Assembly (NCBI GenBank): GCA_934654815.1
Contig: CAKUGU010000003.1
Coordinates: 21,614 to 85,613 of the forward strand
DNA length: 64,000 bases
Reading direction: 5' to 3'
Source of the DNA: an uncultured Ellagibacter sp.
Lineage (GTDB): Bacteria; Actinomycetota; Coriobacteriia; Coriobacteriales; Eggerthellaceae
The notes below the pieces were generated by a model, which was not told where the DNA came from, did no database searches, and was given only the letters and a program-made list of their open reading frames with translations. Made by a program: the position numbers and the translations under genes. Below are positions 11,406 through 64,000 of this stretch, in pieces (the stretch's first letter is position 1; each line of letters starts with the position of its first letter).

Positions 11406-11444
11406 AGGGAGGGCTTGGATCGTCGTACCTGAGTGAGGAGAATC

Positions 11445-39898: not shown

Positions 39899-39919
39899 GA
39901 AATGCGAGGGGGAGACGAA

Positions 39920-40354
39920 ATGGGCGAGAACAGCCGTATCGGAATGAAGGCCCGGGTCTTCTACAAAGGCGGGATCACGGGCGAAGAGCCTCTAGATGAC
40001 TGCAGTCAGGGAGTTCCCATCGAACTCGTGCTGGGGGTTGGGGACATCCCTCCAGGGCTCGACAGGGCTTTCCTCGAAATGAACGTGGGCGAGGAGCGGA
40101 CGGTTGTCATCCCGCCTTCCCTTGGGTATGGAGAGCACGACAAGGACGGTGTCCAGATATACCCCCGAACCCTTTCCCCTGCATTCGAGGGCGTGGGAGT
40201 TGGGGATATCGTGTCTTGGACGAACCCCGTCAGCGGCAGAGCCATTCCCGTAAGGGTCGTCGATGCGGACGCTCAGCTCGTCACACTCGATTTCAACCAC
40301 CCCTTCGCAGGCAAGGAGCTAACGTACTGGCTGCGTCTCGAATCGGTCGAGTAG
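39920..40354 (+). CDS. SlyD-like FKBP-type peptidyl-prolyl isomerase
   Basis: 144 residues from ATG 39920, chosen because GAGGGGGAGA lies just upstream (ATG 39902 is an in-frame alternative). FKBP features are GDIPPGLDRAFLEMNVGEER and PPSLGYGE; the end FNHPFAGKELTYWLRL matches SlyD. No metal-binding tail. It shares the plan of the protein at 31223. Its place between the ferredoxin and a zinc-ribbon gene, all within a few bases, implies co-expression with cassette F. A dedicated folding helper is likely but unproven. Confidence 0.85.
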   Translation: MGENSRIGMKARVFYKGGITGEEPLDDCSQGVPIELVLGVGDIPPGLDRAFLEMNVGEERTVVIPPSLGYGEHDKDGVQIYPRTLSPAFEGVGVGDIVSWTNPVSGRAIPVRVVDADAQLVTLDFNHPFAGKELTYWLRLESVE

Positions 40355-46319: not shown

Positions 46320-46363
46320 TACGATGTCTTTGCCCAACGTCGGCTTGCAGGGTGATGCGAGCG

Positions 46364-46376
46364 TCTCAATGTGAAA
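46364..46376. promoter_or_regulatory. Putative activator site 1 (TCTCA-atg-TGAAA)
   Basis: First of three related half-palindromic sites; the right arm differs by one base from TGAGA. Centre about 160 bp upstream of the -24 element. Confidence 0.5.
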
Positions 46377-46382
46377 CTCCAT

Positions 46383-46395
46383 TCTCACTTTGAGA
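46383..46395. promoter_or_regulatory. Putative activator site 2 (TCTCA-ctt-TGAGA)
   Basis: Exact TCTCA-N3-TGAGA. Together with site 3 it forms a 15-bp perfect inverted repeat (46381-46395 with 46406-46420). Confidence 0.65.
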
Positions 46396-46405
46396 CAAAA
46401 AACTA

Positions 46406-46418
46406 TCTCAAAGTGAGA
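46406..46418. promoter_or_regulatory. Putative activator site 3 (TCTCA-aag-TGAGA)
   Basis: Exact TCTCA-N3-TGAGA, centred about 119 bp upstream of the -24 GG. Position and symmetry fit a sigma-54 upstream activating sequence. Confidence 0.65.
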
Positions 46419-46529
46419 ATCCTTCGTATCTTACCTAGTGCAGAAAAATAGATGATGAAAATATTTTTGCGCATTTCATCAGGCGTTATAAGACTTTTCT
46501 CTAAAGAAATCCCAATGAAAATCAAGTTT

Positions 46530-46545
46530 TGGCATGGCTTTTGCA
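46530..46545 (+). promoter_or_regulatory. Sigma-54 (-24/-12) promoter
   Basis: TGGCATG-N4-TTGCA: the -24 GG is at 46531-46532 and the -12 GC at 46543-46544, exactly ten bases apart, as the family requires. Only one base differs from TGGCACG. Transcription should begin near 46556 and read the small gene at 46634 and the cassette G enzyme. rpoN and an enhancer-binding protein are encoded in this window. Confidence 0.88.
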
Positions 46546-46633: not shown

Positions 46634-46804
46634 ATGCCAGAGGAGAGGAAGGATCTGGATCGGGATTTCCAGCAAGCACGTAAGGACAAGGTGATGGCCG
46701 ATCCCGAGAAGAACAAGGAAGCGTGGCAGCAGAAGGCCCAGGATAAGGCCGGACGCGATTGGACCAAGCCGCGCCGCCCGGTTCTCAAGGATGGCGAAGT
46801 CTAG
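46634..46804 (+). CDS. 56-residue charged protein, first gene of the sigma-54 transcript
   Basis: A short gene with an excellent ribosome site (GAGGAGGACAAG before ATG 46634). The product, MPEERKDLDRDFQQARKDKV and onward, is almost entirely charged or Gln-rich and probably helical. It ends RRPVLKDGEV. No Cys, no membrane helix, no family I recognise. It starts about 78 bp after the expected sigma-54 transcription start and is followed after 45 bp by the cassette G catalytic gene, so it is surely co-transcribed. It could be a small chaperone or a stability factor; this is inference. Confidence 0.7.
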   Translation: MPEERKDLDRDFQQARKDKVMADPEKNKEAWQQKAQDKAGRDWTKPRRPVLKDGEV

Positions 46805-49190: not shown

Positions 49191-49532
49191 ATGGCTGAGA
49201 AGTACGGCATTCTGATTGACTACCAGTGGTGCACCGGCTGCCACTCCTGCGAGATGGCGTGCAAGGTCGAGCATAACTTCGGCGAAGGCGTCTATGGCAT
49301 CAAGCTGTTCGAGGACGGCCCGCGCAAGTACCCCAACGGCAAGTTCGAGTACACCTACCTTCCGGTTGCGACGAGCTTGTGCGACCTGTGCGCCGAGCGC
49401 ACGGCGATGGGCAAGCTCCCGACCTGTGTGCACCATTGCCAGGCCGCTTGCATGAAGTACGGCACGGTTGACGAGCTCGCCGCCATGGCCAAGGAAAACC
49501 CGCGTACTTGGATTTACGTGCCCGAGCAGTAA
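49191..49532 (+). CDS. Ferredoxin-type iron-sulfur subunit of cassette G
   Basis: 113 residues; ATG 49191, two bases after the catalytic gene's stop, with GGGAGG upstream. CTGCHSCEMAC and CDLC...CVHHC can bind two [4Fe-4S] clusters. Electron partner of the enzyme at 46850. A clear terminator closes the unit 37 bp downstream. Confidence 0.9.
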   Translation: MAEKYGILIDYQWCTGCHSCEMACKVEHNFGEGVYGIKLFEDGPRKYPNGKFEYTYLPVATSLCDLCAERTAMGKLPTCVHHCQAACMKYGTVDELAAMAKENPRTWIYVPEQ

Positions 49533-49906: not shown

Positions 49907-49960
49907 GCTTGCATGACGTGATTATGGGTGGCGAGGAAATTTAATTGCGAGGTGATGGCG

Positions 49961-50302
49961 ATGCCTAATTGCAGAACATGCAGTCCATGGTGCAGTCGCT
50001 GCCATAAAAAGGCCGAGATTAAATTTCCCGTTGAGTGTCCGAATTGCGGCTGGTACAACCCGTATGAGCGGGAGTTTTGCAAAAAATGTGGGGCTCCAGT
50101 CGTTCATGATGAATCGAAAGTTGTCACCCATCTTAACGCCGAGGTAAAGAAGTCTTGCTTTTTCTGCACGCCGTTCGTTCGGCCTTTATGCGACGAGTGC
50201 CTTGAAAAAGGAAGGATAAAGATTTGTCCGGAATGCGGAAGCTATGTGCTTGGATCGCGCAAGAATTGCAAGTCTTGCGGATACGAATTTGCGAGTGAAT
50301 AG
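49961..50302 (+). CDS. Double zinc-ribbon protein
   Basis: 113 residues from ATG 49961 (MPNCRTCSPWCSRCHKK), with GAGGTGAT upstream; in-frame ATG 49955 and GTG 49928 are alternatives. It carries four Cys groups: CRTC/CSRC at the N-terminus, CPNCGWYNPYEREFCKKCGA, CFFC...CDEC, and CPECGSYVLGSRKNCKSCGY. It is the largest of the island's zinc-ribbon proteins. It follows the PGAP-tail protein and precedes two MFS genes. Function unknown; protein-protein or nucleic-acid contacts are both possible. Confidence 0.75.
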   Translation: MPNCRTCSPWCSRCHKKAEIKFPVECPNCGWYNPYEREFCKKCGAPVVHDESKVVTHLNAEVKKSCFFCTPFVRPLCDECLEKGRIKICPECGSYVLGSRKNCKSCGYEFASE

Positions 50303-50709: not shown

Positions 50710-51978
50710 ATGTCAACGAAACAGAAAAATGTTAGAACCGCCTGGGCGATTGTCGTAATTGCCTTTCTCGGCGGCCTTGCGCTCGCAAGTGCGCAAAACA
50801 AAGTACCACCTTGCATTGACGTCGTGATGGCTTATTTCAATATTGGAGAAACCGATGCCGGTTGGTTGACCTCGGTCTTCACTATTATGGGCATGATCAC
50901 GGCGATTCCTGCTTCCTGGCTTTTGCGTAAATTAGGTGCGAAGAAGATCGGCGTTATCTCGCTTCTTTGCGCTGCGATCGGCTCGGCTCTTGGCGCGTTT
51001 TCCACCGAGCTGTGGATGCTCATGGCGACGCGCGTTCTCGAAGGCGTCGGCGTCGGCATGATTGCTGTCGTCGGCCCGGCGATTATCTCCATGTGGTTTC
51101 CCGCTGAGAAGCGCGGTCTTCCTATGGGCGTTTGGGGATCATGGCAGATGGCATCGCAGACTATTCTGTTCCTGGTAGGCGGCGGGATTTCGAGCTCGTT
51201 CGGCTGGCAGGGCGTATGGTGGTTCGTGTTCGCGATGTGCGTTGTGGCCCTCATTCTCTACCAATGGAAGGTTGAGGAGCCGCACGACGGAATGCCGAAT
51301 TATGCTGAAGGGGAAGATGACGAGGAATTCCATTTCGGCGATGGCTTCAAATCGTCGTCAACGTGGATTCTGACTCTCTGCGGAACGATTTTCACGTTCT
51401 GCTGTTTTGGATTCGCAACTTATATTTCGCTGTACTGGGCTCAGGCTTTCTACGGTGGAGATATGAGCGCTTCGAACCTTTGGGTTTCGATTATGTACGC
51501 CATTGAGGTTCCGGTCGTTATCTTCATCGGCTGGCTTCTTAACAAGGTGCCTTTGACGAAGCGCCGCTTCGTCGGCGTGATCGGCTTTGCACTGTATACG
51601 TTCATCTTGTTCTTCTGCTTCCGGATGGACGACCCTGCGCTGCTTTTGCCGTTTATCATAATCTACCCGTTCCTCGAGGGCTCCATCCCCACAGTATATT
51701 GGACGCTTATCCCGTCGACTGCGAAGAAGCCTGAGAATTCTGGTACAGCAATCGGCATTCTCAACGTCGGATTGAACATCGGCACGCTGCTCGGTCCTCC
51801 GATCACTGGATTCTTTATCGAAAACTACGGTTGGTCGGCGGCGACGATTCCTCTGGCGATCGCCTCCATCATCGGTGCGGTGCTGTTCTTCTTTGTGAAG
51901 ACCTACTATCACGGCCATTCCGAAGGTGTTGTGCCAATGGACCAGGAAGCCGCTGCTGAACAGGCTGCGGCGCAGTAA
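50710..51978 (+). CDS. MFS transporter
   Basis: 422 residues; ATG 50710 follows GGAGGGG. About twelve helices; loop 2-3 LLRKLGAKKIG; helix 4-5 region FPAEKRGLPMGVWGSW shared with 32922 and 52114. The C-terminal tail is cytoplasmic and Ala/Gln-rich. It is the first of two neighbouring transporters after cassette G and before the sigma-54 activator gene, so it may serve cassette G. The substrate is unknown. Confidence 0.85.
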   Translation: MSTKQKNVRTAWAIVVIAFLGGLALASAQNKVPPCIDVVMAYFNIGETDAGWLTSVFTIMGMITAIPASWLLRKLGAKKIGVISLLCAAIGSALGAFSTELWMLMATRVLEGVGVGMIAVVGPAIISMWFPAEKRGLPMGVWGSWQMASQTILFLVGGGISSSFGWQGVWWFVFAMCVVALILYQWKVEEPHDGMPNYAEGEDDEEFHFGDGFKSSSTWILTLCGTIFTFCCFGFATYISLYWAQAFYGGDMSASNLWVSIMYAIEVPVVIFIGWLLNKVPLTKRRFVGVIGFALYTFILFFCFRMDDPALLLPFIIIYPFLEGSIPTVYWTLIPSTAKKPENSGTAIGILNVGLNIGTLLGPPITGFFIENYGWSAATIPLAIASIIGAVLFFFVKTYYHGHSEGVVPMDQEAAAEQAAAQ

Positions 51979-52113: not shown

Positions 52114-53298
52114 ATGAACGGAAAGAAAGCATGGGTTGTCGCGCTTGTCACGATTTTCGCTGGCATAGCTCTTGCCCTGGTTCAAAACAAGGTTGCGCCC
52201 TGCATGACAACGCTGCAAAGTGCTTTCGGCATCGATATGGCGACGGCAGGCTGGCTTAGCTCGCTATTCTCTTTGGTGGGCATCATCATGGCTTTACCGG
52301 CATCCGTGATTTTGAATAAGCTCGGACCGAAGAAGAGCGGGGTCATCGCGCTCGTGTGCGCGATTGCAGGTTCGCTTCTGGGTGTGCTGACCACCGACAT
52401 CGCGATTCTCATGATCAGTCGCGTTATCGAGGGAGTTGGCGTCGGCCTTATTTCGGTCATCGGCCCGTCCATCATCGCGAGTTGGTTTCCCGAGGCGAAA
52501 CGTGGCCTTCCCATGAGCATTTGGGCGGTGTATCAGATGGGCGCGCAGGCGGTTATGTTCTTCCTTGCCGCATTCCTCACGTCGAACTTCGGTTGGCAGG
52601 GTATGTGGTGGTTCGGCTTGGCTGCGTGTGTCGTTGCGCTGATTTTCTACGTACTGTGCGTTAAGAGCCCGCGTCCTGAAGAGAGCTATGCCGATGTCGA
52701 AAGCGAGAACGTGTCGCTTAAAGAGGGAATGAGCTCTCCTTCGACGTGGATTATGGCTCTTGTCACCTTCTTGTTCTGCATTGGGTGCTTCGGCTTCGTG
52801 AACTGGGTTGCCACGTATTGGGCTACTGTGCCGAGCATCGGCGAGGGCGCCAACTCGTGGGTCGGCTACTTTTCGCTTGCGGCGGTGGTTGCCGCGATCA
52901 TCATGGGCATGCTCTTGAACCATATCAAGAAACGCAAGCTTTTCGGCATGGCGGCGCTCGTGGCGTACGGCGTCGTCGCCGTGTTCGGGTTGACGCTCGA
53001 CAACCCGGCGCCGCTCGTCATCTTTACCATCGTGTATGGCTTCATGGATTCCGGCTTCCCGTGCGTTTTGTGGACCATGACGGCGCAGACAGTGAAGAAG
53101 CCCGAACTGGCAGGCGTCGCAACTGGCGTTGTCTGCATCGGGTTCAACGCAGGCATTCTCGTCGGGCCGCCGATTATCGGCGCGGTCGCCGAAAGTCTTG
53201 GCTGGACGGCAGCTGGTTGGGCTATCGCTGGCTGCTGCATCGCTGCTGCGATTCTTCTCGCGTTTGTGAAGACCTATGCGACTGAGGACGTGGCATAG
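52114..53298 (+). CDS. MFS transporter
   Basis: 394 residues; ATG 52114 follows GAGGAGGGA. About twelve helices; loop 2-3 reads LNKLGPKKSG and the helix 4-5 region FPEAKRGLPMSIW. It is a close paralog of the transporter at 50710 (shared start pattern ALAxxQNKVxPCM and the same gene length class), so a tandem duplication is likely. It ends 23 bp before the end of the convergent sigma-54 activator gene. Confidence 0.85.
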   Translation: MNGKKAWVVALVTIFAGIALALVQNKVAPCMTTLQSAFGIDMATAGWLSSLFSLVGIIMALPASVILNKLGPKKSGVIALVCAIAGSLLGVLTTDIAILMISRVIEGVGVGLISVIGPSIIASWFPEAKRGLPMSIWAVYQMGAQAVMFFLAAFLTSNFGWQGMWWFGLAACVVALIFYVLCVKSPRPEESYADVESENVSLKEGMSSPSTWIMALVTFLFCIGCFGFVNWVATYWATVPSIGEGANSWVGYFSLAAVVAAIIMGMLLNHIKKRKLFGMAALVAYGVVAVFGLTLDNPAPLVIFTIVYGFMDSGFPCVLWTMTAQTVKKPELAGVATGVVCIGFNAGILVGPPIIGAVAESLGWTAAGWAIAGCCIAAAILLAFVKTYATEDVA

Positions 53299-53321: not shown

Positions 53322-55508
53322 CTAGAGTTTCTTCAGCTTTCGATACATTGTTGCCTTGCTGATGCCGAGCAACTTCGAGGCCTGAAGAACGTCGTTGTTC
53401 GTTCGCTTGAGCGCTTCGTTGATGGCGAGGCGCTCAAGCTCTTGCAACGACAGGGTGGGCAGCGGCGATTCAGCAATGCCGGTGGATGCTTCCTTGCGGG
53501 AGTGGCTCAGCGTCGTTTCAGGCGAATCGTCTTTGTTCAGAACCTTGATAGTTGAAGACGGATCATTTTGCATGTCGGGGTGGTGCGCGAAAACGGTTTT
53601 CTCGTCATTGATTAGATAGGCGGGAAAGTCGCCGAGTTCGATAATGCCCTTCTCACACGTGTAGTAAGCCGAATAGATGGCATGCTTGAGCTGACGAACA
53701 TTGCCCGGCCAGGAGTACGAATCGATGAAGGCGGAAGCGCTGTCGGAAAAAACGGCCTTGCCGTAACTTGTTTTCGAGTCACATTCGCCCAAATAGTAGT
53801 TGGCAAAGAAAAGGGCGTCGCCTTTTCGGTCTCGCAAGGGCGGAAGCCCTATCGACAGCACGGAAAGGCGGTAGAGCAAGTCTTCGCGAAACCTTCCGTT
53901 TGCCGCCATTTCCGTTAAGTCCCTGTTTGTAGCCGAGATCAAGCGGAAGTCTACCTGCTTGTAGCTCTTGCCCCCGACGCGCATGACGCGTTTGTTCTCG
54001 AGCACGCGAAGAAGGGTCGACTGCAGTTCGAGGGGCATGTCTCCGATTTCGTCGAGGAATAGCGTGCCTCCGTTCGCAAGTTCGATCTTTCCGGGTTTGC
54101 CGGTTTTGTCCGCTCCGGTGAAACTGCCGCTGTCGTAGCCGAAAAGCTCGCTTTCAATGAGGTTCGGGGGAATTGCGGCGCAGTTGATGGACATGAACGG
54201 CCCGCTTGGGCGAGATGCGTTATGGATCGCCTGGGCAAACAGCTCCTTGCCTGTCCCGCTTTCACCGGTGATGAGGACGTTCTCGTTGATGAGGGCGAAC
54301 CGGTGGGCGAGTTTTTTCGTGCGGCCGATTTGCGGGCTTCTTCCCAGAATTTGCGAGAAGGTGATGGGCGCGGTGTCGCCGACGGTTTTTTTCGGCGCAT
54401 CGGATCCGGCTTCTCTCGGCGCGATTTCTCGAAGGAGGAGGATATAGTTTGAATCCGAATCGTCTTCGCCGCTTCGGATCTCGCGCGGGATGAGCGAATA
54501 GCGGCGGTCGTTGGCATCGAAGGTGTACTTCTTCCCATTCGAGAAATCTTGCCGTACCTTTTCGTCTTCCCCTAGATCGCACAGACAGCGAATCGACTTG
54601 CCGACAAGCTGCTCGGGGATAGTGAGCAGAATCTTCGCCGCATCGTGATTGGCATAGACGATCTTAAGGTTGCCGTTGATGATGATCGTTGCCTCTTTGG
54701 TGATGTCGACGAGGCTTTTCGAGAGATTCTGGAAAAGGTGGGCGAAGCTGTTTGCCTGAGCGTATTCGCCTTCGGCGGTTTCCAAGTCGGAACGGTACGT
54801 GTTGATGCGCAATTGCGAGCTGATCGTGTTGGCGATCGTCGACACGAGGCTCATGGCATGGATGAGCAGCTTCTTCTCGGTCGAAGTGATCCGATCGGGT
54901 ATTTTCTGCGTGAGAAGCAGCGCGCCGAGTGGGTCTCCATACTGGTCGAGGATAGGCGCCGCGCAAGCGATGAGCTCTTGGAGCCCGAAGCAGTAGTGCT
55001 CGGGGCCGATCACTGCGAAGGGACGGCGATGTTTCATGCAGAGGTCGTGGGCATTCGTGCCGGCGTTCTCGATGTTGAGAAGGTACTTCTTCGCCGCGAA
55101 GTTGTGAAGCTCCAAGTTTCCCACTTGGAGAAGGGAAAGCCCATCCAGGTTCATGAGCTCGAACACGTAGTCGTTCTCGATGTTGAGCGACTCGACGGTT
55201 CGCAGCTTCTCTGCGGTTTCGTCGATGAGGGCTTTATTCGCTTCGAGCGCGAGGCTCACGTATTCGTCTGTCGCGTATTCCCCGAGTATGGGCCGGTCGG
55301 GTTCGAGCCCGGCGCTCTTCGAGTCGATCCACGACTGCGCGATTTCGGGCCTTACGTAGGGAGACGTGCGCGGATCGGTTCCGTTGTTCAGGAAGTCGAG
55401 CTTCGCGTCGAAGATATGCTCCCAGAATGATTCGTCTTCAGACATCAACTTGATAAGGCGTAAATCGTCCGCGTAGTCGATGTCGAGGTTTTGGTTGGTT
55501 TTGCTCAT
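53322..55508 (-). CDS. Sigma-54-dependent enhancer-binding activator (AcoR-like: GAF, PAS, AAA+, Fis)
   Basis: 728 residues from ATG 55508 (MSKTNQNLDI); TTG 55526 is an alternative. Order: an N-terminal region with RPEIAQSWIDSKSAG near 53-67, GAF-like sensor (about 75-235), PAS-like (about 265-360), AAA+ core (385-620) and Fis-type helix-turn-helix (last 45). Walker A is GESGTGKE (415-422), Walker B GTLFLDE (481-487). The sigma-54 contact loop reads GSFTGA (461-466), a small change from GAFTGA. It should drive open-complex formation at sigma-54 promoters such as 46530. A palindrome sits just upstream of its start. The sensed signal is unknown. Confidence 0.92.
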   Translation of the reverse strand: MSKTNQNLDIDYADDLRLIKLMSEDESFWEHIFDAKLDFLNNGTDPRTSPYVRPEIAQSWIDSKSAGLEPDRPILGEYATDEYVSLALEANKALIDETAEKLRTVESLNIENDYVFELMNLDGLSLLQVGNLELHNFAAKKYLLNIENAGTNAHDLCMKHRRPFAVIGPEHYCFGLQELIACAAPILDQYGDPLGALLLTQKIPDRITSTEKKLLIHAMSLVSTIANTISSQLRINTYRSDLETAEGEYAQANSFAHLFQNLSKSLVDITKEATIIINGNLKIVYANHDAAKILLTIPEQLVGKSIRCLCDLGEDEKVRQDFSNGKKYTFDANDRRYSLIPREIRSGEDDSDSNYILLLREIAPREAGSDAPKKTVGDTAPITFSQILGRSPQIGRTKKLAHRFALINENVLITGESGTGKELFAQAIHNASRPSGPFMSINCAAIPPNLIESELFGYDSGSFTGADKTGKPGKIELANGGTLFLDEIGDMPLELQSTLLRVLENKRVMRVGGKSYKQVDFRLISATNRDLTEMAANGRFREDLLYRLSVLSIGLPPLRDRKGDALFFANYYLGECDSKTSYGKAVFSDSASAFIDSYSWPGNVRQLKHAIYSAYYTCEKGIIELGDFPAYLINDEKTVFAHHPDMQNDPSSTIKVLNKDDSPETTLSHSRKEASTGIAESPLPTLSLQELERLAINEALKRTNNDVLQASKLLGISKATMYRKLKKL

Positions 55509-55550
55509 GGTGATCCGATCCCCCAATCGGCGTCATTGTGAGTCAAGGAA

Positions 55551-55575
55551 ATTGATACTCCTCTCGAGTATCAAT
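55551..55575. promoter_or_regulatory. Palindrome ATTGATACTC-N5-GAGTATCAAT
   Basis: A perfect 10-bp inverted repeat in the 82-bp gap between the divergent activator (55508) and LRR protein (55591) genes. It is probably an autoregulatory operator. TATCA-N3-TGAGA (55569-55581), one base from the sites at 46383 and 46406, overlaps its right arm. Confidence 0.6.
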
Positions 55576-55590
55576 TTGAGACAATTGTAG

Positions 55591-57537
55591 GTGCAACGAA
55601 CAGTGAATGTCGAGTTAAAAAACAGCATATTGCCTTTCTCCCCGGGGGGGAGGTCGGGAGACGGTTTGCGCCTGAATCCCGTCGAACTTCGCAACCGGGA
55701 TCTCATCAATGATCCCGCGCTTTCTGGTTATCGCGTTGAGGGGCGGGCGAAGAGCGACGACGGTTACGACAAGAAGCGGCCCGACATCGTCGAACTGCGC
55801 TATGGCGGATTCGAATACTCGATTCTTCAAGACGGAACGCTACGCCTCGATACCTACGATGGCTTGGCGGACGACGCGTTCATCCCTTCGGAAATCGATG
55901 GGAGGAAAGTAGCTGCTTTCGGCGCGACGCTGTTTCGCGACTGCGAGGCGTTAAGGCGTGTTTCGATCGATTCCGGCAACGAGCTTTTCTCGACCGACGG
56001 CGTCGCCGTGTTCTCGAAGGATGGCAAAACGCTCGTGCGTCTCGCCGCTTCGGTTGCGGAATATTCCGTTCCCGAAGGGTGTGAGCGGATCGGTGACCAT
56101 GCGTTCGATTCTGCCGAGCGTTTGGAGCGGGTGTGCCTGCCCGGCTCGCTGATCAGGATAGGAAAGCTCGCGTTCGCCAAGTCGGGGGTTCGGAAAATCG
56201 CGATTCCTCCGTCCGTCGAAACGGTTGAAGACAGGGCCTTCTTCTCGTGCCGTGATCTTGTCAGCTGCGAGCTTTCGAACGGCCTTCGAACGATCGGGGA
56301 GGGCGCGTTTTCGCTCACGGCGATTAAGAGCTTTTATGTCCCGGAGAGCGTCGAGCATATCGGGCGCGCGGCGTTCGGACTCACCCCTGCTCAGAAGCGG
56401 GTTGGGTTCGGGGCGATCACCGTCGCTCCGGGCAATGGGACGTATCGCATCGACGAGAAGGGCGGGCTGTACGCAGCCGATGCGCTCGTCGAGCTTATCG
56501 GCGACGTGGAGGCCTATGCGGTGCGCCCGGGAACGCGCGCCATAGCCGATCGCGCCTGTTGCTGGCATGGGCGCCTTCGGTCGGTCGAGGTGCCCGAAGG
56601 GGTGCGGACGATCGGTGACGAGGCGTTTCGCGGGGCGCGCGTGTTGAGGAAAGTGGCTCTTCCCGAGTCGCTCGAGTCGATTGGCGCTGCCGCTTTCATG
56701 GACACCGATGTTTCCAGATTGCGCCTTTCCCGCAATGTGCGCACAATCGGGCGCTCGGCGCTTCTCGTGCAGGGTGAGGGAATGATGAAGTCGGGGCACC
56801 CGCTTGAGTCCGTGGATCTTGACGAGGGCAACCCCGTCTTCTACCTGGAAAGCGGGCTGCTCTGCGAACGAGGGGGCGGCGACGCCGGAGGTGACAGCTG
56901 CCTTCTATACCTTGGGCCGCAGGACAACGTGACGATTCCGGATGCGGTGAACCGCGTTGCCCCCTTCGCGTTTTGCGGTGCCCGCGGTATCGACCGGCTC
57001 GTAGTACACGGGCATCTGCACAGCATCTGCACGAGCGCGTTTTCCACGCGGTGTTCCATTCCTCATATGCGGGTCGAGTGTCAGCGCCCGGACGGCAGCC
57101 GCGAATGGGAGGAATTCCGCGTGCCGAGCCTGACGACGAATTTCCGGGCCCAAACGCTTCTGCTCGGGACCGACGGAGACGGCACGGTGTTCAACTACCC
57201 GTACTACGACTCGTGGGTGACGCATTCGTCAGCCATCGACGAGTTCGCGCCTGCTGCCGTTGCACGGCTGCGATCGGGCAATTATTTGGACGAGCGTATG
57301 CGGGAAGTGTACCGGGGCATCGTTTCCCATCGGGCTTCGAAGGTGTGCCGTTACCTTGCAGGTGCGGGCGACATCGACGCGATTGCGTTCCTCGTCGAAG
57401 ACGGCACCCTCGCGCTTGAAGAGGTGGCGGCCGAGGCTGACCGCTCTGCTGGTGCGGGAGACGCGCAGCTGAGCGCGTACCTGTTCGAGCTGAAGCACCG
57501 TTTCGGCGCGCCTTCGGGCGTCGACTTCAACCTATAG
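55591..57537 (+). CDS. BspA-type leucine-rich-repeat protein
   Basis: Up to 648 residues. The start is uncertain: GTG 55591, GTG 55603 (AGGTG upstream) or a later TTG are possible. Residues about 90-480 contain BspA-like leucine-rich repeats with the pattern VPEGVRTIGDEAFRGAxxLxKVALPES. There is no signal peptide or anchor, unusual because BspA proteins are often surface-exposed, so this one may act inside the cell. The C-terminal 170 residues differ and may bind partners. It heads an operon with the VWA, MoxR and chaperone genes (15 bp to the next start). A recognition or adaptor role is inference. Confidence 0.75.
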   Translation: MQRTVNVELKNSILPFSPGGRSGDGLRLNPVELRNRDLINDPALSGYRVEGRAKSDDGYDKKRPDIVELRYGGFEYSILQDGTLRLDTYDGLADDAFIPSEIDGRKVAAFGATLFRDCEALRRVSIDSGNELFSTDGVAVFSKDGKTLVRLAASVAEYSVPEGCERIGDHAFDSAERLERVCLPGSLIRIGKLAFAKSGVRKIAIPPSVETVEDRAFFSCRDLVSCELSNGLRTIGEGAFSLTAIKSFYVPESVEHIGRAAFGLTPAQKRVGFGAITVAPGNGTYRIDEKGGLYAADALVELIGDVEAYAVRPGTRAIADRACCWHGRLRSVEVPEGVRTIGDEAFRGARVLRKVALPESLESIGAAAFMDTDVSRLRLSRNVRTIGRSALLVQGEGMMKSGHPLESVDLDEGNPVFYLESGLLCERGGGDAGGDSCLLYLGPQDNVTIPDAVNRVAPFAFCGARGIDRLVVHGHLHSICTSAFSTRCSIPHMRVECQRPDGSREWEEFRVPSLTTNFRAQTLLLGTDGDGTVFNYPYYDSWVTHSSAIDEFAPAAVARLRSGNYLDERMREVYRGIVSHRASKVCRYLAGAGDIDAIAFLVEDGTLALEEVAAEADRSAGAGDAQLSAYLFELKHRFGAPSGVDFNL

Positions 57538-57552
57538 CAAGGAGGTGCGACC

Positions 57553-59262
57553 ATGAAAGACGAAACGCCCATCCTGGAAGCCGACTTCTCACTCAAGGAA
57601 CGCGAGCGCTTGGGTATCGGGCACGCTAAAAGCGTCGAGCGTATCGGCGTTGTGAGCGAAGAGCGCATGAAGAAACGCTACGAGAAATTCGAGCGCTACA
57701 CGCCTGTGGCGACGGATATCCTCAAAGAGGCCCAATCGGCCCTGGCGATACGGTTCAGATTCCTCGACCGGGCCCTGTGGCGCATGCCCCTCGTCCCGTG
57801 CTTCGATATGTACGGTATCGCAAGCGACGGTCGACGCATGCTGTTCGACCCCGTTTTCGTGGTCGATCGGTTCAACCTGTCCCAAAACGAGGTCGTGCGG
57901 GACGTGGCGCACTGCCTGTTCCATTGTATCTTCCGCCACCCGTTCATGCTGTACTCGGTGCTGCGCCAGCCGTGGGACGTCGCGTGCGACATAGCGATCG
58001 AGTCGATGCTGCTCGACATGGTTGGGAAGGCCTTCCCGTCGAATATGGACCGTCGTGCCAGGGAGTCCCTGCGGGTGCTGCGCGCCCAGGCAGGTGGGGT
58101 GATCACGGCCGAGAGGCTGTACCACTTCTTCTCGAACACGGGAAGTCATGTCGACTTGAATTCGCTCGCCCCGATATTCCGCCACGATGTGCACGGACTC
58201 TGGTACGGAAGCGACGAGGGGCGTGCAACCGACGCATCGTCGGCGACGGCTACGAAGGATACGGGGGAGGCGCGCGAGGACGGTGCCGCTACCAGGCAAA
58301 ACGGGGTCGAGGAGCTCGACGAGATCAGTAGTGGTCCGGTTGCGGTTCCGAAGCCCGAACCTGAAGGGGGGTCCGCGGGAGAGGCGGTCGACGGGGGAGA
58401 GGGTCCCGAATCGGAATCGGAGGCTCTGCGCGATGATGGGCCTTCCGGCGATGGCGGCGCCGGCGAAAGCGTAAGCGGCCACGACTCGGCAATCGACGAG
58501 GAGCTTGCCGGGCAATGGGAGCAAGTCAGCCGCCAGATTCAAGTTGAGCTCGAGACTCATCTGGCTCAACAAGGCGAGGGGGCTGGCAACCTTATCGCCG
58601 AGCTTCGAGCGGTGAATCGCGAGAAGTATGACTACGCGAGCTTCCTCAAGCGCTTTGCCACGCTTCATGAGCGCATGAAGGTGAACGCCGACGAGTTCGA
58701 CTACATCTACTACACCTACGGGCTGAAGCGCTACGGCAACATGCCGCTTATCGAGCCTTTGGAATACAAGGAGGATCGCCAAGTCCATGACTTCGTCATC
58801 GCGATCGACACGTCGGAATCGTGCTCGGGCGATCTGGTGCAAAGCTTCATGCGCAAGACGTACAACATCCTGAAGCAGGCCGAAAGTTTCCATAGCCGGG
58901 TGAATATCCATATCGTGCAGTGCGACGCCCGCGTGCAGGAGGACACGAAGATCACGTCGCTCGATGACTTGGAACTCTACATGAAGGACATGGAGTTGAA
59001 GGGCTTCGGCGGCACGGACTTCAGGCCGGTGTTCGACTACGTGAACCTGCTCATCGAGAAAGGCGAATTCACCGATTTGCGAGGAATCGTGTACTTCACC
59101 GACGGTGAGGGGACCTTCCCGCGGCGTCCGCCCGCCTACGACGCGGTTTTCGTGTTCCTCGACGACGGCTGCACCGACCCTAAGGTGCCCCCGTGGGCGC
59201 TCAAGGTGATATTGGACGAGCACGAGCTCGAATTCGACGGGAAGCCTTTCGGCTCCCGGTGA
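57553..59262 (+). CDS. VWA-domain protein with degenerate metallopeptidase-like domain (DUF2201 type)
   Basis: 569 residues; ATG 57553 follows AGGAGGTG. The N-terminal half resembles the putative metallopeptidase region of DUF2201 proteins, where HExxH is usual; here it reads HCLFH (120-124), with Cys for Glu, so peptidase activity is doubtful. A Glu/Gly-rich disordered stretch follows (about 225-320). The C-terminal VWA-like domain has an intact MIDAS: DTSES (419-423), Thr488 and Asp517. VWA proteins of this kind pair with MoxR ATPases, as in CoxE/CoxD and NorD/NorQ, to mature or activate metalloenzymes. Its MoxR partner is encoded 17 bp downstream. Confidence 0.82.
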   Translation: MKDETPILEADFSLKERERLGIGHAKSVERIGVVSEERMKKRYEKFERYTPVATDILKEAQSALAIRFRFLDRALWRMPLVPCFDMYGIASDGRRMLFDPVFVVDRFNLSQNEVVRDVAHCLFHCIFRHPFMLYSVLRQPWDVACDIAIESMLLDMVGKAFPSNMDRRARESLRVLRAQAGGVITAERLYHFFSNTGSHVDLNSLAPIFRHDVHGLWYGSDEGRATDASSATATKDTGEAREDGAATRQNGVEELDEISSGPVAVPKPEPEGGSAGEAVDGGEGPESESEALRDDGPSGDGGAGESVSGHDSAIDEELAGQWEQVSRQIQVELETHLAQQGEGAGNLIAELRAVNREKYDYASFLKRFATLHERMKVNADEFDYIYYTYGLKRYGNMPLIEPLEYKEDRQVHDFVIAIDTSESCSGDLVQSFMRKTYNILKQAESFHSRVNIHIVQCDARVQEDTKITSLDDLELYMKDMELKGFGGTDFRPVFDYVNLLIEKGEFTDLRGIVYFTDGEGTFPRRPPAYDAVFVFLDDGCTDPKVPPWALKVILDEHELEFDGKPFGSR

Positions 59263-59279
59263 CGATAAGGAGGAAAGCA

Positions 59280-60785
59280 ATGAATATCGCGCAAGCAAAA
59301 CAGCAGATAAAAGATACCGTTGAAGCCTATTTGGCAACTGACGAGAACGGGGAGCCGCTCCTTTCCGTAGAGCACCAGCGCCCGATCTTCTTGGTCGGCG
59401 CGCCCGGCATCGGCAAGACCGCCATCGTTTCGCAAGTGGCCTCTGAATTGGGCATCGGGCTTGTGTCGTACTCCATGACGCATCATACGCGTCAAAGCGC
59501 GCTCGGCCTGCCCTTCATCGTCGAGCGCGACTACGGCGGGGAGCACTACGAGGTGTCGGAGTATACGATGAGCGAGATCATCGCGTCGGTCTTCGACTGC
59601 ATAGAGGAAAGCGGGTGCGAGAAGGGCATCCTCTTCCTCGACGAAATCAACTGCGTGTCCGAGACGCTGTACCCGTCGATGCTTCAGTTCCTCCAGTTCA
59701 AGACGTTCGGAAGGCATAAAGTTCCCGACGGTTGGGTCGTGGTGACGGCGGGCAACCCACCCGAGTACAACCGGTCCGTCCACGAGTTCGACGTGGTGAC
59801 GCTCGATCGCCTGAAGAAAATCGTTGTCGATCCCGATTTCGACGCGTGGAAGGCGTACGCGGTGGAAAAAGGCGTCCACCCCGCCGTGCTTACGTTCCTC
59901 GAGGCGAAGAAGGATCGCTTTTACATGATGGAATCGTCGCTCGACGGCAAGGCGTTCGTGACGGCGCGCGGCTGGGACGATTTGTCGGACATCGTCAGAG
60001 TCTACGAGAAACTGGGCAAGAAGGTCGACTACGACCTGGTATGCCATTACGTGCAGAATGAAACGGCTGCCGGCGACTTCGCGGCGTACTACGACCTGTT
60101 CAACAAGTACTGCGACGACTACCGCATCGAAGACATCCTCTCGGGCAGTCGGGACGAGGGAATCGTGGCGCGTGCCAAGGAAGCGAAATTCGACGAGAGG
60201 CTTTCGCTCTTGGGGCTTCTACTCGACTCGCTTGGGCATAATTTCCGAAGGGTCATGAACAGGACTGACGTGCTGCTTGCTGTTCGGGACGACCTGCGCG
60301 ACGCGAAGGAACGAGTCGTCGCAGGCGGTATTACGCCGCAGATTGCGCTCGACCGCATTGTCGGTGAGAAGGAGCGCCAACTCGAGCTGCTCGTGGCGAG
60401 CGGCGCCGCTTGCAAAGGCAAGCGCAACCGCATTCGCGCCGAGAGGGAAATGCTTGTGGCGTATTCGCGCGACAGCACGGTCGCGTCGTCGCGGGCGGGC
60501 GATTTCTCCGCGGTGGAAAAGCTGTTCGCGCACGATTCGGACATGGCGGACGCGACAGCTTCAATCGAGTCGCGCTTGTCGGCCGCGTACTCGTTCATTG
60601 AGGAGGCTTTCGGCGACGCTCAGGAGATGCTCATTTTCACGACGGAGCTCACGCAGCGTCCGGCGTCGGCGCGCTACGTTGCTCAATACGGAAGCGAGTC
60701 CTACTATAATCATAACGAGAAGATGATCCTGTCCGATAAGCAGCGCGAGCTGCGCAAACGCATCGAGGATCTGGAAACGTTGTAG
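59280..60785 (+). CDS. MoxR-type AAA+ ATPase
   Basis: 501 residues from ATG 59280 (MNIAQAKQQIKD) with AAGGAGGAAA upstream. Walker A is GAPGIGKT (40-47) and Walker B ILFLDEIN (117-124); a NPPEYNR sensor segment follows, so it should hydrolyse ATP. The C-terminal 220 residues are helical and not typical of small MoxR proteins (about 330 residues), so it is a longer variant. With the VWA protein encoded before it, it probably forms a chaperone complex that remodels or loads a metalloenzyme. The molybdoenzymes of the island are the obvious client candidates, but this is unproven. Confidence 0.85.
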   Translation: MNIAQAKQQIKDTVEAYLATDENGEPLLSVEHQRPIFLVGAPGIGKTAIVSQVASELGIGLVSYSMTHHTRQSALGLPFIVERDYGGEHYEVSEYTMSEIIASVFDCIEESGCEKGILFLDEINCVSETLYPSMLQFLQFKTFGRHKVPDGWVVVTAGNPPEYNRSVHEFDVVTLDRLKKIVVDPDFDAWKAYAVEKGVHPAVLTFLEAKKDRFYMMESSLDGKAFVTARGWDDLSDIVRVYEKLGKKVDYDLVCHYVQNETAAGDFAAYYDLFNKYCDDYRIEDILSGSRDEGIVARAKEAKFDERLSLLGLLLDSLGHNFRRVMNRTDVLLAVRDDLRDAKERVVAGGITPQIALDRIVGEKERQLELLVASGAACKGKRNRIRAEREMLVAYSRDSTVASSRAGDFSAVEKLFAHDSDMADATASIESRLSAAYSFIEEAFGDAQEMLIFTTELTQRPASARYVAQYGSESYYNHNEKMILSDKQRELRKRIEDLETL

Positions 60786-60839
60786 GGGTTGGGGAGAAAT
60801 CCGCACAGGCGGCTTTCAAGATAAAAGGGGGAATTCCTT

Positions 60840-61679
60840 ATGGCAAAGTACACACTTTCAAACTACGATCCGATTCACGTAGAGCTTCCGAAGCCGCAGG
60901 TTCCGCCAAGCTTGGTGGAGACGCAGATCAACAAGATGTTAGAGCCCTTGTCGAAGTACCAGGAGGTCGCCGAAGACAGAGGAGTTGTTTTCGGGGACTT
61001 TCTCGTCGTTACCACCGCCGATGCGAAGATGGACGGCAATCCGGCGCGGAATTTCATCATGGAGCATTCCATCTACCACGTCGGCGCGGGCGAGATGCCT
61101 AAAACGTTCGACGACGAGCTTCTCGGGGTGAAGCCCGGCGAAACCAAGAGCGTTTGCGCCAAAATCAAGCTGCCTCTCGCCAAAGACGGCGAGGCTTCCA
61201 ATCTGACCATGGACGTGACGGTCGAGAAGATCCTCACCTGCACGCCTCCTGCGCTTACGGACGAGTTGGTGCAGGAACATTTCGGCCCTGCGACGACGGT
61301 CGAGGAGTTCCGCGAGGGCGTGGCGAAGCAGTTCGGACTGCCCGACATGGCCAAAGACGACCCTCAGTTCCCCGACTTGGTGCTTGGAAAGCTTGCGGAG
61401 CGTCTGGTTGAAGACCCCGACCCCGCAGACCGTATGGAAGGTATGCCCGACGACGCGCTGAGGGCGACGTGCGCTATCGATGCGCTTGCCGATCATCTCG
61501 ATCTCAATCTCACCGAAGACCAGATCATCGCGCAGATGCCGGGCGACGACCTTAACCAAAAGATGAAGATCCACCAGCAGCTCAAAGACCAGGGCATGGC
61601 CGATCAGGCGGTTGTGTTCGCGAAGCGCGAGGCCGCGCTGTCGTGGCTTGTCAACAAGTCGAGCGTCTCGTACAAGTAG
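60840..61679 (+). CDS. Trigger-factor-like chaperone lacking the ribosome-binding domain
   Basis: 279 residues; ATG 60840 follows AAAAGGGGG. Residues about 40-140 form a trigger-factor FKBP domain (MPKTFDDELLGVKPGETKSV, DVTVEKILTCTPPALTDELV), and the rest resembles the trigger-factor C-terminal arm. The N-terminal ribosome-binding domain with its GFRxGxxP loop is absent, and the protein is about 150 residues shorter than trigger factor. It should therefore act off the ribosome as a dedicated folding helper. It is 54 bp after the MoxR gene. Third FKBP-type isomerase of the window. Confidence 0.82.
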   Translation: MAKYTLSNYDPIHVELPKPQVPPSLVETQINKMLEPLSKYQEVAEDRGVVFGDFLVVTTADAKMDGNPARNFIMEHSIYHVGAGEMPKTFDDELLGVKPGETKSVCAKIKLPLAKDGEASNLTMDVTVEKILTCTPPALTDELVQEHFGPATTVEEFREGVAKQFGLPDMAKDDPQFPDLVLGKLAERLVEDPDPADRMEGMPDDALRATCAIDALADHLDLNLTEDQIIAQMPGDDLNQKMKIHQQLKDQGMADQAVVFAKREAALSWLVNKSSVSYK

Positions 61680-61768
61680 TCGCCGCGTAGGGCTTGATTC
61701 TCGCGGCAGAAGGGGTATTGCCAGTGCTTTCGCAAGATGCACGGCAGCCGACAAGAGGGGATGCAATC

Positions 61769-62392
61769 ATGAACTACCAGGGATTGAAAGAGGAGATAAA
61801 CGCGCTTCCCGACTCAAAGAGAAGAGCCTATCGCTCGTTGTTCAGCGTGGCGAGCGTGGGTGGTGATGTGTGGCCGAAGTTCCGTCCGCATCTTGATGGA
61901 GCCGCCTGCGCTGACGAGTTCTTTGAGGCGATTTACAACGACGACGAGATGCGCTTCGAGAACGTTTGGGCCGAATGGGCGAAGATGAAGCGCAAGAAAT
62001 GGGTGTCTCGCTTTGACGCCGACGAGGAGTACGAGAACATCCGATTCGAAGAGCGGGGCATCTTCCTTACCGGGAACGCGGGAAACGAGCTGCTCATCCC
62101 GATGATCGGTCGCGGAAAATTCGGCGGTATCTACATCTTCGAGGACAACGGCTTCAACGAAAGGGCGGCTGAACTGTACGGATCGATCAACGGCAGTTTC
62201 AGTTGTATGGGCGTTGAGATCGAGGGGGCTTTCGACATTTACCGGACAGACTGCGCGCTCATCTTCGAGCGTTGGGACGTCGATAAGCTCATGCGTCGCA
62301 AGGATGGAAAAGGTCAAGCGAGCAGCGGCTGCGACTGCAATCGAATATGGGATGTCGAGGGAATCGATTGGGATGCGGCAAAACGAGTGTAG
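61769..62392 (+). CDS. Hypothetical protein of the chaperone operon
   Basis: 207 residues from ATG 61769 (MNYQGLKEEINALPDSK) with AAGAGGGG upstream. I do not recognise a family. It is soluble, acidic, and has a Gly-rich turn (GNAGNELLIPMIGRGKFGGI) and a CDCNR motif near the end with two Cys. Last gene of the plus-strand operon that begins at 55591; it is separated from rpoN by a bidirectional terminator. It may be another component of the putative maturation complex. Confidence 0.7.
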   Translation: MNYQGLKEEINALPDSKRRAYRSLFSVASVGGDVWPKFRPHLDGAACADEFFEAIYNDDEMRFENVWAEWAKMKRKKWVSRFDADEEYENIRFEERGIFLTGNAGNELLIPMIGRGKFGGIYIFEDNGFNERAAELYGSINGSFSCMGVEIEGAFDIYRTDCALIFERWDVDKLMRRKDGKGQASSGCDCNRIWDVEGIDWDAAKRV

Positions 62393-62400
62393 TCGCATTA

Positions 62401-62448
62401 CAGGCGGATGGGGCGCGGCTGATTGATTGATCGGCGTCCCACCCGCTG
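62401..62448. terminator. Bidirectional hairpin between the chaperone operon and rpoN
   Basis: Arms at 62401-62416 and 62434-62448 (CAGGCGG and CCCGCTG ends) form a long, imperfect GC stem between convergent genes, followed by TTTACG. Confidence 0.65.
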
Positions 62449-62449
62449 T

Positions 62450-63868
62450 TTACGCGCGCTTTCGCAGTGAGCGAGGGAGGATGTCGAGCTCTGCTCTGTA
62501 TTTGCCAACCGTGCGTCGCGAGATCGGGATGGACTCTTCTCTCAGCTGATCGGCGATTTCCTGATCGCTGAGCGGGTTGTAGGGATTTTCGGTTCGCACT
62601 ATTTCCGAGAGGCGGTGCTTGGCGCTCGCTTGCGCGACCGTACTTGTTCCGTCGCTTGTGATAGGGGATTGGAAGAAATAACGTAGTTCAAAAACACCAC
62701 GCGGGGTTTGCATGTAGTTGCCGCTGGCGATTCTGCTTACGGTCGACTTCGAGTAACCGGTCAGAGACGCGACCTTCTCCATAGTCAAGGATTGCAGATG
62801 ATCGATTCCATGGCAGAAGAATGCATGCTGCAGCTCGACGATGCAGCATGAGATTTTAAACAGAGCCTCTTTTCGATAATGGATGTTATCGACGAGCGAT
62901 TCCGCTTCGTCGAGCTTTCGCTTCAGGTATTTCTCGGTTTCCTTATTCTTCTCGCTTTTAGCCAAGGTGCGATAGCGATTATTTATTCTCAAATGAGGAA
63001 GAAAGAAATCCTGCATATGAACGCAGTAGCTCCCTATGGTTTCAATGGGGTCAGCGGCTGAGGCATCGACATCGTTTGCGCCCCGAACGTTTTTCGCCGG
63101 CTCAACTATGACTTCCGGCCAAATGGTGCGAGATGGGGCGCTGAATCCGGCTCCGGGACGTGGGTTGCAGGTCCTCAGCTTGTCGAGTGCCTCGTCGATT
63201 TCTTCAAGAGAGACGTTCTTCTCTTTCGCGATTCGCTCCGGGCTCGCTTTTCCGAATTCTGGTAGACCTCCTTCAAGGATTTTCTTCACTGGTCCAATGA
63301 GGGCTTTGCGCACTTCGAGTTGGATTGCGAGACATTCGGTCAAATTACGCGCTGCTATTCCGGCCGGCTCCATATGCTGAACGATATCGAGCACGCGAAG
63401 CACATCGCTTTCGTCAACTCCGAGCATGTTTGCGATTTCGTCTGTCGAGATGCAAAGGTACCCGTTGTCGTCCAGACTGTCGATGATGAATTCACCGATG
63501 CTCTGCTCGCTCGGGGAATCTGTTGCTAAATGAAGCTGCTCGATGAGACTGTCGGCGAGAGTGCCTTTCTGCGCGAGGAAATCGGCGAAGTCCCTATCCG
63601 AACGATTTGCATAGCCCCCGTTCTCGAGAGCGCCGTCCATTGATTCGAGAGTCGCATCGACGCTGATCGACGGTTTGTATTCGCTTGATGGCTTTACGTG
63701 CTGAGGCCATTCTTGGTCAGTATCGTCGAAAAAGGGATTCTCTTCAGCGCATTGCTTGACGTGCTGCGACAAATCGCTCGCAGACATCTGGAGAATGGCA
63801 ATCCCCTGCTGCAACTCCGTGCTGAGAAACAGCTCCTGACGAAGCTCGGTACGTTGAGTAAGTTCCAT
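62450..63868 (-). CDS. rpoN: RNA polymerase sigma-54 factor RpoN
   Basis: 472 residues from ATG 63868 (MELTQRTELRQELFLSTELQ), preceded by GGGGG; the frame is open to the window edge but the family start is here. Region I is Gln/Leu-rich; the core-binding part follows; the helix-turn-helix contains SLTMEKVASLTGYSKSTVSR; the RpoN box near the C-terminus reads SRRTVGKYRAEL, against the consensus ARRTVAKYRE. It should recognise -24/-12 promoters. Placing rpoN beside its activator and its candidate target operons suggests a dedicated circuit. Sigma-54 is, as I recall, scarce in Actinomycetota. Confidence 0.95.
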   Translation of the reverse strand: MELTQRTELRQELFLSTELQQGIAILQMSASDLSQHVKQCAEENPFFDDTDQEWPQHVKPSSEYKPSISVDATLESMDGALENGGYANRSDRDFADFLAQKGTLADSLIEQLHLATDSPSEQSIGEFIIDSLDDNGYLCISTDEIANMLGVDESDVLRVLDIVQHMEPAGIAARNLTECLAIQLEVRKALIGPVKKILEGGLPEFGKASPERIAKEKNVSLEEIDEALDKLRTCNPRPGAGFSAPSRTIWPEVIVEPAKNVRGANDVDASAADPIETIGSYCVHMQDFFLPHLRINNRYRTLAKSEKNKETEKYLKRKLDEAESLVDNIHYRKEALFKISCCIVELQHAFFCHGIDHLQSLTMEKVASLTGYSKSTVSRIASGNYMQTPRGVFELRYFFQSPITSDGTSTVAQASAKHRLSEIVRTENPYNPLSDQEIADQLREESIPISRRTVGKYRAELDILPRSLRKRA

Positions 63869-64000
63869 GAAGTCGCCCCCCTGCGCCTTCAAATATATAA
63901 CGGTAATTATATCACCAGAGGATTGATGATTAGCGAGGCGACAACGGTGCGACCGCCTGAAGATGCTAGCGGGATGGCGTGCTTTCATGCAGATGCGCAT

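Follow-up and report, generated by a model that had tools for sequence, protein, structure and literature searches.

A candidate assembly machine of LRR, VWA, MoxR, and trigger-factor parts linked to an acetylene-hydratase-like molybdoenzyme in an uncultured Ellagibacter

Analysis of a 64,000-nucleotide stretch of an uncultured Ellagibacter sp. (contig CAKUGU010000003.1; this whole stretch is referred to as the window) revealed a plus-strand operon at 55591-62392, encoding in this order a leucine-rich-repeat (LRR) protein, a von Willebrand factor A (VWA) protein, a MoxR-type ATPase, a relative of trigger factor, and a protein of 207 residues. In other genomes, this module is found together with one particular molybdoenzyme gene of the same window, 46850-49189. 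Considering this linkage and the protein families involved, we infer that the operon probably encodes a machine dedicated to the biogenesis of 46850-49189, a cytoplasmic molybdoenzyme of the acetylene-hydratase-like kind. The seven genes named in the initial annotation, i.e., the five genes of the operon, the sigma-54 activator (bEBP) before it, and rpoN after it, the latter two on the minus strand, were recovered as open frames at their positions by a check of the open reading frames of the window and by Pfam and NCBIfam scans. Within the operon, the genes are separated by only 15, 17, 54, and 89 bases, and since the gene order of the module is found again in other genomes, it is not a product of chance.

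Linkage of the operon to one molybdoenzyme

The protein 46850-49189 contains the Molybdopterin and the dinucleotide-binding domains of Pfam and has acetylene hydratase (2e7z, E 3e-94) as its closest solved relative, the next one following at E 6e-64, which places it in the acetylene-hydratase-like class. A twin-arginine pair is absent from its first 60 residues. Its first iron-sulphur cysteine is replaced by asparagine in 13 of 13 sequences of this type and is also missing in three of five other enzymes of the window. Compared with most loci, the enzyme is 91-92% conserved where MoxR reaches 61-67%, with a divergence at fourfold sites that is only somewhat lower, which points to strong constraint. 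A relative sharing 65% identity is named acetylene hydratase in Sporomusa.

Co-occurrence was evaluated in 138 genomes (the family of genome G002, some of them fragmentary). Orthologues of the enzyme with 85-92% identity are present in 12 of these, the next best match having 60%, and in a thirteenth enzyme genome, G001, the copy is truncated where the contig stops (89% over 138 residues). MoxR proteins matching over the whole length at 61-67% were detected in 12 genomes, exactly the same 12 that contain a VWA protein of this type (E limit 1e-150), and the trigger-factor relative in 14. MoxR of this type thus occurs in 11/13 enzyme genomes vs. 1/125 others, the trigger-factor relative in 12/13 vs. 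2/125, the activator in 10/13 vs. 1/125, and rpoN in 12/13 vs. 19/125. As the genomes are related, the corresponding Fisher p values (1.6e-13 and similar) overstate independence and serve as a guide only. The initial annotation had connected the gene set to the molybdoenzymes of the island in general; the check gave a tighter tie than claimed, directed toward only one (46850-49189) of the seven molybdoenzymes scanned in the window.

The MoxR and enzyme genes also share a contig in all 11 genomes that contain both (enzyme identity 88-92%), lying 5.0-10.6 kb apart in ten of them with G001 as the eleventh; in nine genomes, rpoN is found no more than 15 kb away from the enzyme. The control set consisted of 102 further paralogues of the acetylene-hydratase-like class (the first 102 rows below 61% identity of the enzyme search, 83 of them in genomes with a listed MoxR), none of which lies within 15 kb of MoxR; the MoxR rows omitted from this distance count share no contig with the controls. 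Comparison of the flanks up to 20 kb, outside the Gordonibacter group and for G069 and G113 on one side only, showed no or one common frame at 45% identity and 0 to 2 at 30% identity, mostly rpoN itself. With so few flank genes in common, the gene set, often accompanied by rpoN, occupies about seven different surroundings.

Three genomes show partial sets. In the fragmentary G065, the enzyme contig stops before the module, and another contig hosts the trigger-factor gene beside the end of MoxR. G124 contains the module on a 6-kb contig, and no enzyme orthologue was found by search. In G070 (locus L082), which has flank genes in common with G071 at up to 99% identity, enzyme orthologue, LRR gene, and VWA gene of this type are missing and the MoxR frame lacks its ATPase part; what remains, next to rpoN, is the trigger-factor relative with the following two genes. 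This looks like one deletion that removed enzyme, LRR, VWA, and the ATPase part of MoxR.

An island that is inherited and transferred as a whole, its genes being passive hitch-hikers with no functional bond, would be compatible with several of these observations: all MoxR rows of this type cluster together, rpoN is often the neighbour of the island, and fourfold sites of the enzyme have diverged somewhat less than those of MoxR and the trigger-factor relative. We nevertheless consider this explanation unlikely. The activator and transporter genes change position within the island while enzyme and module stay together, the outer flanks differ, and enzyme and module appear to have been lost jointly in G070. 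Furthermore, fourfold-site differences from the window already amount to 0.40-0.53 for the enzyme and 0.41-0.50 for MoxR, so that a recent transfer does not explain the linkage.

Working parts of the encoded proteins

The VWA protein retains the residues of the metal-ion-dependent adhesion site (MIDAS), D419, S421, S423, T488, and D517, in 81/81 aligned sequences and, as a neighbour of MoxR with the DxSxS, T, and D pattern, has the make-up of the partner in a MoxR-VWA couple. Its His-rich N-domain is similarly conserved, with H120, H124, D146, E150, and D212 in 81/81 sequences, H214 in 80, and H129 in 79. Position 121, which holds the catalytic glutamate in HExxH enzymes, is never glutamate (0/81). 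Because this glutamate is missing and the histidine and acidic residues are kept, we read the N-domain as a putative metal or structural site rather than a peptidase. In the MoxR protein, G40, G43, G45, K46, T47, D121, E122, N159, and R177 are found in 89-90 of 90 rows; these residues belong to the Walker A, Walker B, sensor 1, and arginine motifs of the ATPase, which are kept. Its match to bpMoxR remains below the cut-off (23.8 bits vs. 27), and the Pfam scan detected no propeller family on the VWA protein, which sets the pair apart from the MoxR-vWA-beta-propeller systems. The LRR protein carries a domain C-terminal of its repeats that is conserved in the branch of the window (branch A, E 3e-30 or better) and weakly so in a sister branch (branch B, E 3e-5 to 0.02); its last residues are in most cases DFSL or DFDL.

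The protein 60840-61679 has no Pfam family match. It covers positions 106-265 of 410 of the NCBIfam tig profile at 79 bits vs. a cut-off of 180 and aligns with residues 122-273 of the solved trigger factor 1t11, leaving out the ribosome-binding domain; it is therefore related to, but not an equivalog of, trigger factor. All eight matches under E 0.001 in a fold search with its predicted model (pLDDT 88.6, pTM 0.55) are trigger factors. The earlier designation as ribosome-free trigger factor agrees with this partial profile match and the fold match. Among the 80 loci kept for the analysis of MoxR surroundings, this short relative adjoins MoxR only in L001-L004; frames of 418 and 435 residues with weak matches in L025 and L069 were not counted as such. 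Both are of trigger-factor size and lie ~1 kb after MoxR, and the former (L025:12599-13852, from a Clostridium genome) may be chance or an early form of the link.

The 207-residue protein retained its status as unknown, with no family at E 0.01 in Pfam or NCBIfam. A search among 5.8 billion proteins yielded seven matches, one being the protein itself, and further relatives of 39-56% identity were found in related loci. A helical N-part and a beta C-part are predicted.

Sister branch and spread of the core

In a MoxR tree, midpoint-rooted for drawing, the 13 branch-A rows group together (support 98-99), with branch B (99) as their neighbour, and the other rows, mostly from Clostridia plus two from Eggerthellaceae, stand apart. 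MoxR of branch B is as a rule fused to a C-terminal methyltransferase and stands beside a second molybdoenzyme, MoB, 38-39% identical to 46850. Orthologues of MoB (at least 76%) were detected in 34 genomes, at 35 places in total; at 20 of these, MoxR is no more than 15 kb away, the distance being 5.1-5.7 kb in 16 of the 20. MoB lacks all four iron-sulphur cysteines in the four sequences covering the site. The MoB enzymes at L007:2129-4504, L011:2226-4559, L012:2156-4564, and L056:13186-15630 have Ser, Tyr, and Asn at the usual cysteines, making MoB a well conserved member of the dimethyl sulfoxide (DMSO)-reductase superfamily without cluster ligands. L018 and L035 have a third kind of molybdoenzyme as neighbour, 42-44% identical to MoB. 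In L018 (6679-15601), two VWA-MoxR pairs face each other, one of them fused to the methyltransferase.

Folding genes are also part of branch B. L012, L056, and L069 encode a protein that corresponds to the C-terminal part of trigger factor alone, and its gene adjoins one for a SlyD-like FKBP. This protein starts with a motif, F/Y-TL-T/S-SY-x-PV, that resembles the one in the trigger-factor relative of the window and that a full trigger factor in L069 has before its isomerase part; the motif thus marks where the ribosome-binding part was lost. Orthologues of the C-part protein (at least 59%) occur in 21 genomes, 18 of which have MoB; in 16 of the 21, MoxR is at most 15 kb away. Branch A thus has the trigger-factor parts joined, and branch B has them split into an FKBP and a C-domain protein. 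In eight of the searched branch-A loci (L002, L003, L082, L084, L085, L087, L088, and L089), the methyltransferase stands as a gene of its own, placed after the trigger-factor relative and before the 207-residue gene; in L004/L093, it is interrupted by an assembly gap, and it was not found in L001, L083, and L086. For the window, which was judged from its gap size, the 89 bases between these two genes leave no room for it.

The LRR-VWA-MoxR core itself is far more widely distributed. Homologues of MoxR number at least 7999. Out of at least 592 MoxR loci, 80 were retained, with Eggerthellaceae, Lachnospiraceae, and Oscillospiraceae among their sources. In these 80 loci, a mechanical picking and clustering of genes assigned MoxR 72 times, the LRR cluster 69 times, and VWA 66 times; in eight loci, the picking missed MoxR itself. 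The clostridial loci L034, L033, and L071 contain arrays of several LRR_5 genes around VWA-MoxR.

This wide distribution in Clostridia could suggest a module with a general role in defence or conflict among gut bacteria that merely settled beside molybdoenzyme genes, with the several LRR genes around VWA-MoxR, e.g., in L034, resembling variable recognition parts and the weak bpMoxR match pointing in the same direction. Such a role is nonetheless very unlikely in our view: PADLOC returned only weak matches to the AAA part, the best being IetA at E 4e-5, and the other four proteins had no match; the two branches stand beside two specific enzymes with 0/102 among the controls; and a chaperone gene is located within the operon.

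Control, proposed mechanism, and known systems

The best sigma-54 promoter sequence of the window is found at 46530, upstream of a 56-residue gene and the enzyme, with inverted repeats 110-170 bases further upstream. Among the 10 loci with enough upstream DNA, the window included, a strict promoter (19.5-21.4 of 21.4) precedes the orthologous enzyme operon in six, the background being 0.027 per 300 bases at a score of at least 18. Three more loci have the variant TGGCAY-N5-TTTCA, recognized by eye from the printed sequence, and G045, which is also devoid of rpoN, has a weak match of 17.0. The activator (53322-55526; Sigma54_activat E 2e-65 and HTH_8, with PAS_9 under the cut-off) has matches at E 1e-130 in 11/138 genomes, all of them within the enzyme or module set. 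With a -24/-12 promoter, an activator, and rpoN, the enzyme operon has the make-up of a sigma-54 regulon. Upstream of the LRR gene, a scan of 12 loci with some starts guessed gave a full match (21.4) in L088 and scores of 18.2-18.5 in L003, L004, and L085. The 12-base perfect repeat at 55549-55577 has one weaker match in the window (3 mismatches), at 22893.

The presence of activator and rpoN in the island raises the question of whether the module is a signalling or control device, with LRR sensing and a MoxR/VWA threshold switch, co-inherited as a regulator of the enzyme. MoxR-vWA pairs have been proposed as threshold switches in the accessible part of PMC7159879. In the window, the half-site TTTGAGACAA occurs only at the repeats upstream of the enzyme (46363-46420) and at 55575, and is thus common to the enzyme upstream region and the gap between activator and LRR gene. 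On the other hand, the trigger-factor relative and the FKBP gene of the sister branch point to folding, and G001 and G045 have no activator match (E 1e-130) where the module stays. We therefore judge a control device rather unlikely.

For the preferred reading, a biogenesis machine for 46850-49189, we propose the following model, in which the physical contacts, the order of the steps, and the loaded species are drawn from families and motifs. RpoN and the activator would switch on the enzyme operon from the putative promoter at 46530. The trigger-factor relative, most likely the holder, would bind the newly made enzyme off the ribosome and isomerise it, and the LRR protein, most likely the adaptor, would deliver the apo-enzyme through its repeats and conserved C-terminal domain to the VWA protein. 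The latter, with MIDAS and His-rich metal site, would dock on the MoxR ring, whose ATP hydrolysis may open or reshape the apo-enzyme so that molybdenum cofactor and/or iron-sulphur site can be loaded.

Several observations weigh against this reading, the chief doubts being raised by G131 and by the wide spread of the core. G131 contains an intact enzyme orthologue (85%), and searches found neither a MoxR match (E 1e-60) nor a trigger-factor relative. That the operon loads or activates the molybdoenzymes of the island, as the initial annotation proposed, is backed in part by the linkage to 46850-49189 and contradicted in part by G131 and by the wide spread of the core, with loading and activation themselves belonging to the model. 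Among the 31 clostridial core genomes of the kept loci that were examined, 28 gave no match to the molybdopterin oxidoreductase family (E 1e-10) and the remaining three gave one match each, which argues that the LRR-VWA-MoxR core as such is not a molybdoenzyme device. A wide occurrence without molybdoenzymes, named beforehand as evidence against the proposal, was hence found for the core, while the full set is tied to one enzyme. In 20 hand-picked loci with other VWA-MoxR pairs of the family (MoxR 48-54% identical, outside the tree), a molybdoenzyme frame of a distant kind is nearby in four and an LRR gene was found by the window query in one. Of the 35 MoB places, 15 are without a MoxR gene inside 15 kb, and contig ends account for some of these, not for G062, G071, G087, and G004. 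The lower fourfold-site divergence of the enzyme may reflect a history partly different from that of the module. The suggested sigma-54 circuit stands in that rpoN and activator travel with the island and a clear promoter precedes the enzyme operon, while none was found in the 300 bases before the LRR gene of the window, i.e., before the chaperone operon. Finally, linkage demonstrates a shared fate and is no proof of a bond between chaperone and client.

Maturation by MoxR/VWA pairs is a known kind of process, for instance by CoxD/CoxE of Oligotropha with a client of the xanthine-oxidase family; here it would be combined with an LRR protein, trigger-factor parts, and a client of the DMSO-reductase superfamily. 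No such combination was found in the literature searched, in agreement with the novelty claimed initially. The general notion that such pairs serve metal sites is borne out by the accessible parts of two accounts. NorQ/NorD of Paracoccus, a MoxR-type AAA+ protein and a cytosolic VWA partner with MIDAS, insert FeB into nitric oxide reductase, their genes likewise adjoining one metalloenzyme (PMC9976466); their client, however, is a membrane haem enzyme, the N-part of NorD is described as being without homology, and this part of the account names no LRR protein, trigger-factor relative, or sigma-54 set. CoxD/CoxE similarly combine AAA+ and VWA in building the molybdenum active site of the Mo-Cu CO dehydrogenase, but with a helper CoxF carrying an XdhC motif, and the accessible text describes no LRR or trigger-factor part (PMC4240915). 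The MoxR-vWA ternary conflict systems (VMAP, iSTAND, FtsH, beta-propeller) also add a third component to MoxR and vWA, as far as described in the parts available (PMC7159879, PMC8195603), whereas here this component is a BspA-type LRR protein, bpMoxR is under the cut-off, and the module is linked to an enzyme; DUF2201 and trigger factor have no occurrence and LRR one in the accessible text of PMC7159879. Compared with trigger factor, the window relative shares fold and isomerase region and lacks the ribosome-binding domain.

A further parallel is offered by catechol dehydroxylases of the same bacterial group, which according to the accessible texts are closest to acetylene hydratase (PMC7028382) and require enzyme-specific helpers including a TorD-like chaperone (PMC11887054). 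The accessory genes DadhD-H resemble the module as enzyme-specific helpers for an acetylene-hydratase-like molybdoenzyme, but comprise a TorD-like chaperone, a helicase-domain protein, and ferredoxins, with no occurrence of MoxR in that text (PMC11887054). Gordonibacter urolithinfaciens is described there as genetically tractable. Taking these helper-dependent enzymes together with the known metal-site MoxR/VWA pairs, the most likely function of the operon is the assembly of the 46850 enzyme.

That one enzyme co-travels in evolution with its own folding machines and gene switch suggests that some gut molybdoenzymes require a dedicated assembly device to become active. Molybdoenzyme Pfam matches number 18, 81, 85, and 109 in four Eggerthellaceae genomes. 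Relatives modify polyphenols and neurotransmitters, and producing them in an active state in standard hosts is difficult, as reported in the parts accessible of PMC11887054 and PMC7028382. A dedicated assembly set would partly explain inactive product in such hosts and suggest partners for co-expression. It would also provide a first candidate client for the very common LRR-VWA-MoxR family of gut bacteria and show that trigger-factor parts are re-used off the ribosome. Going beyond this, we tentatively raise the possibility of a family-wide assembly machine, in which an ATP-driven LRR-VWA-MoxR remodeller and off-ribosome trigger-factor pieces, in many copies with a methyltransferase, might insert metal or cofactor into enzymes with unusual iron-sulphur sites, such as the 46850 type without its first cysteine and MoB without all four, replacing a TorD-type chaperone. 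If true, the far larger clostridial branch would serve other client enzymes.

Features of the molybdoenzyme and chaperone operons and their surroundings in the window
Feature	Position	Strand	Basis
Inverted repeats TCTCA..TGAGA, likely activator-binding (enhancer) sites	46363..46420	.	Repeat scan
Sigma-54 (-24/-12) promoter, top score of the window	46530..46545	+	Promoter scan
56-residue protein, no family, first gene of the molybdoenzyme operon	46634..46804	+	Conserved before the enzyme; no Pfam match at E 0.001
Acetylene-hydratase-like molybdoenzyme, proposed client	46850..49189	+	Pfam, solved relatives, orthologues
Ferredoxin-type iron-sulphur subunit	49191..49532	+	Fer4_2 just over cut-off; Fer4_11 and Fer4 under cut-off
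Zinc-ribbon protein	49928..50302	+	Zn_Ribbon_1 barely at cut-off; place conserved
MFS transporter	50710..51978	+	Pfam; conserved in several loci
MFS transporter	52114..53298	+	Pfam; conserved in several loci
Sigma-54 activator (bEBP), likely ATG start near 55508	53322..55526	-	Pfam
Perfect inverted repeat of 12 bases in the gap from activator to LRR gene, candidate operator	55549..55577	.	
BspA-type LRR protein, proposed adaptor	55591..57537	+	LRR_5 E 2e-40
VWA protein, DUF2201_N and DUF2201	57553..59262	+	DUF2201 E 1e-11, DUF2201_N E 4e-11
MoxR-type AAA+ ATPase	59280..60785	+	Pfam AAA_5 and AAA above cut-off, bpMoxR under it
Trigger-factor relative, isomerase-like and C-terminal parts	60840..61679	+	NCBIfam tig E 3e-22, partial
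207-residue protein, unknown family	61769..62392	+	No family match
Sigma-54 factor RpoN, end about 63868, frame open to 64000	62450..63868	-	All three sigma-54 domains

With regard to the remaining window, no TorD family member was found among the scanned proteins, which cover part of the frames. Another molybdoenzyme (11433-14129) matches the first domain of pyrogallol hydroxytransferase-like large subunits at E 4e-9. FKBP/SlyD-like isomerase genes (31190-31648 and 39902-40354) stand beside two other molybdoenzyme cassettes, so that a folding isomerase seems to be a theme of the island.

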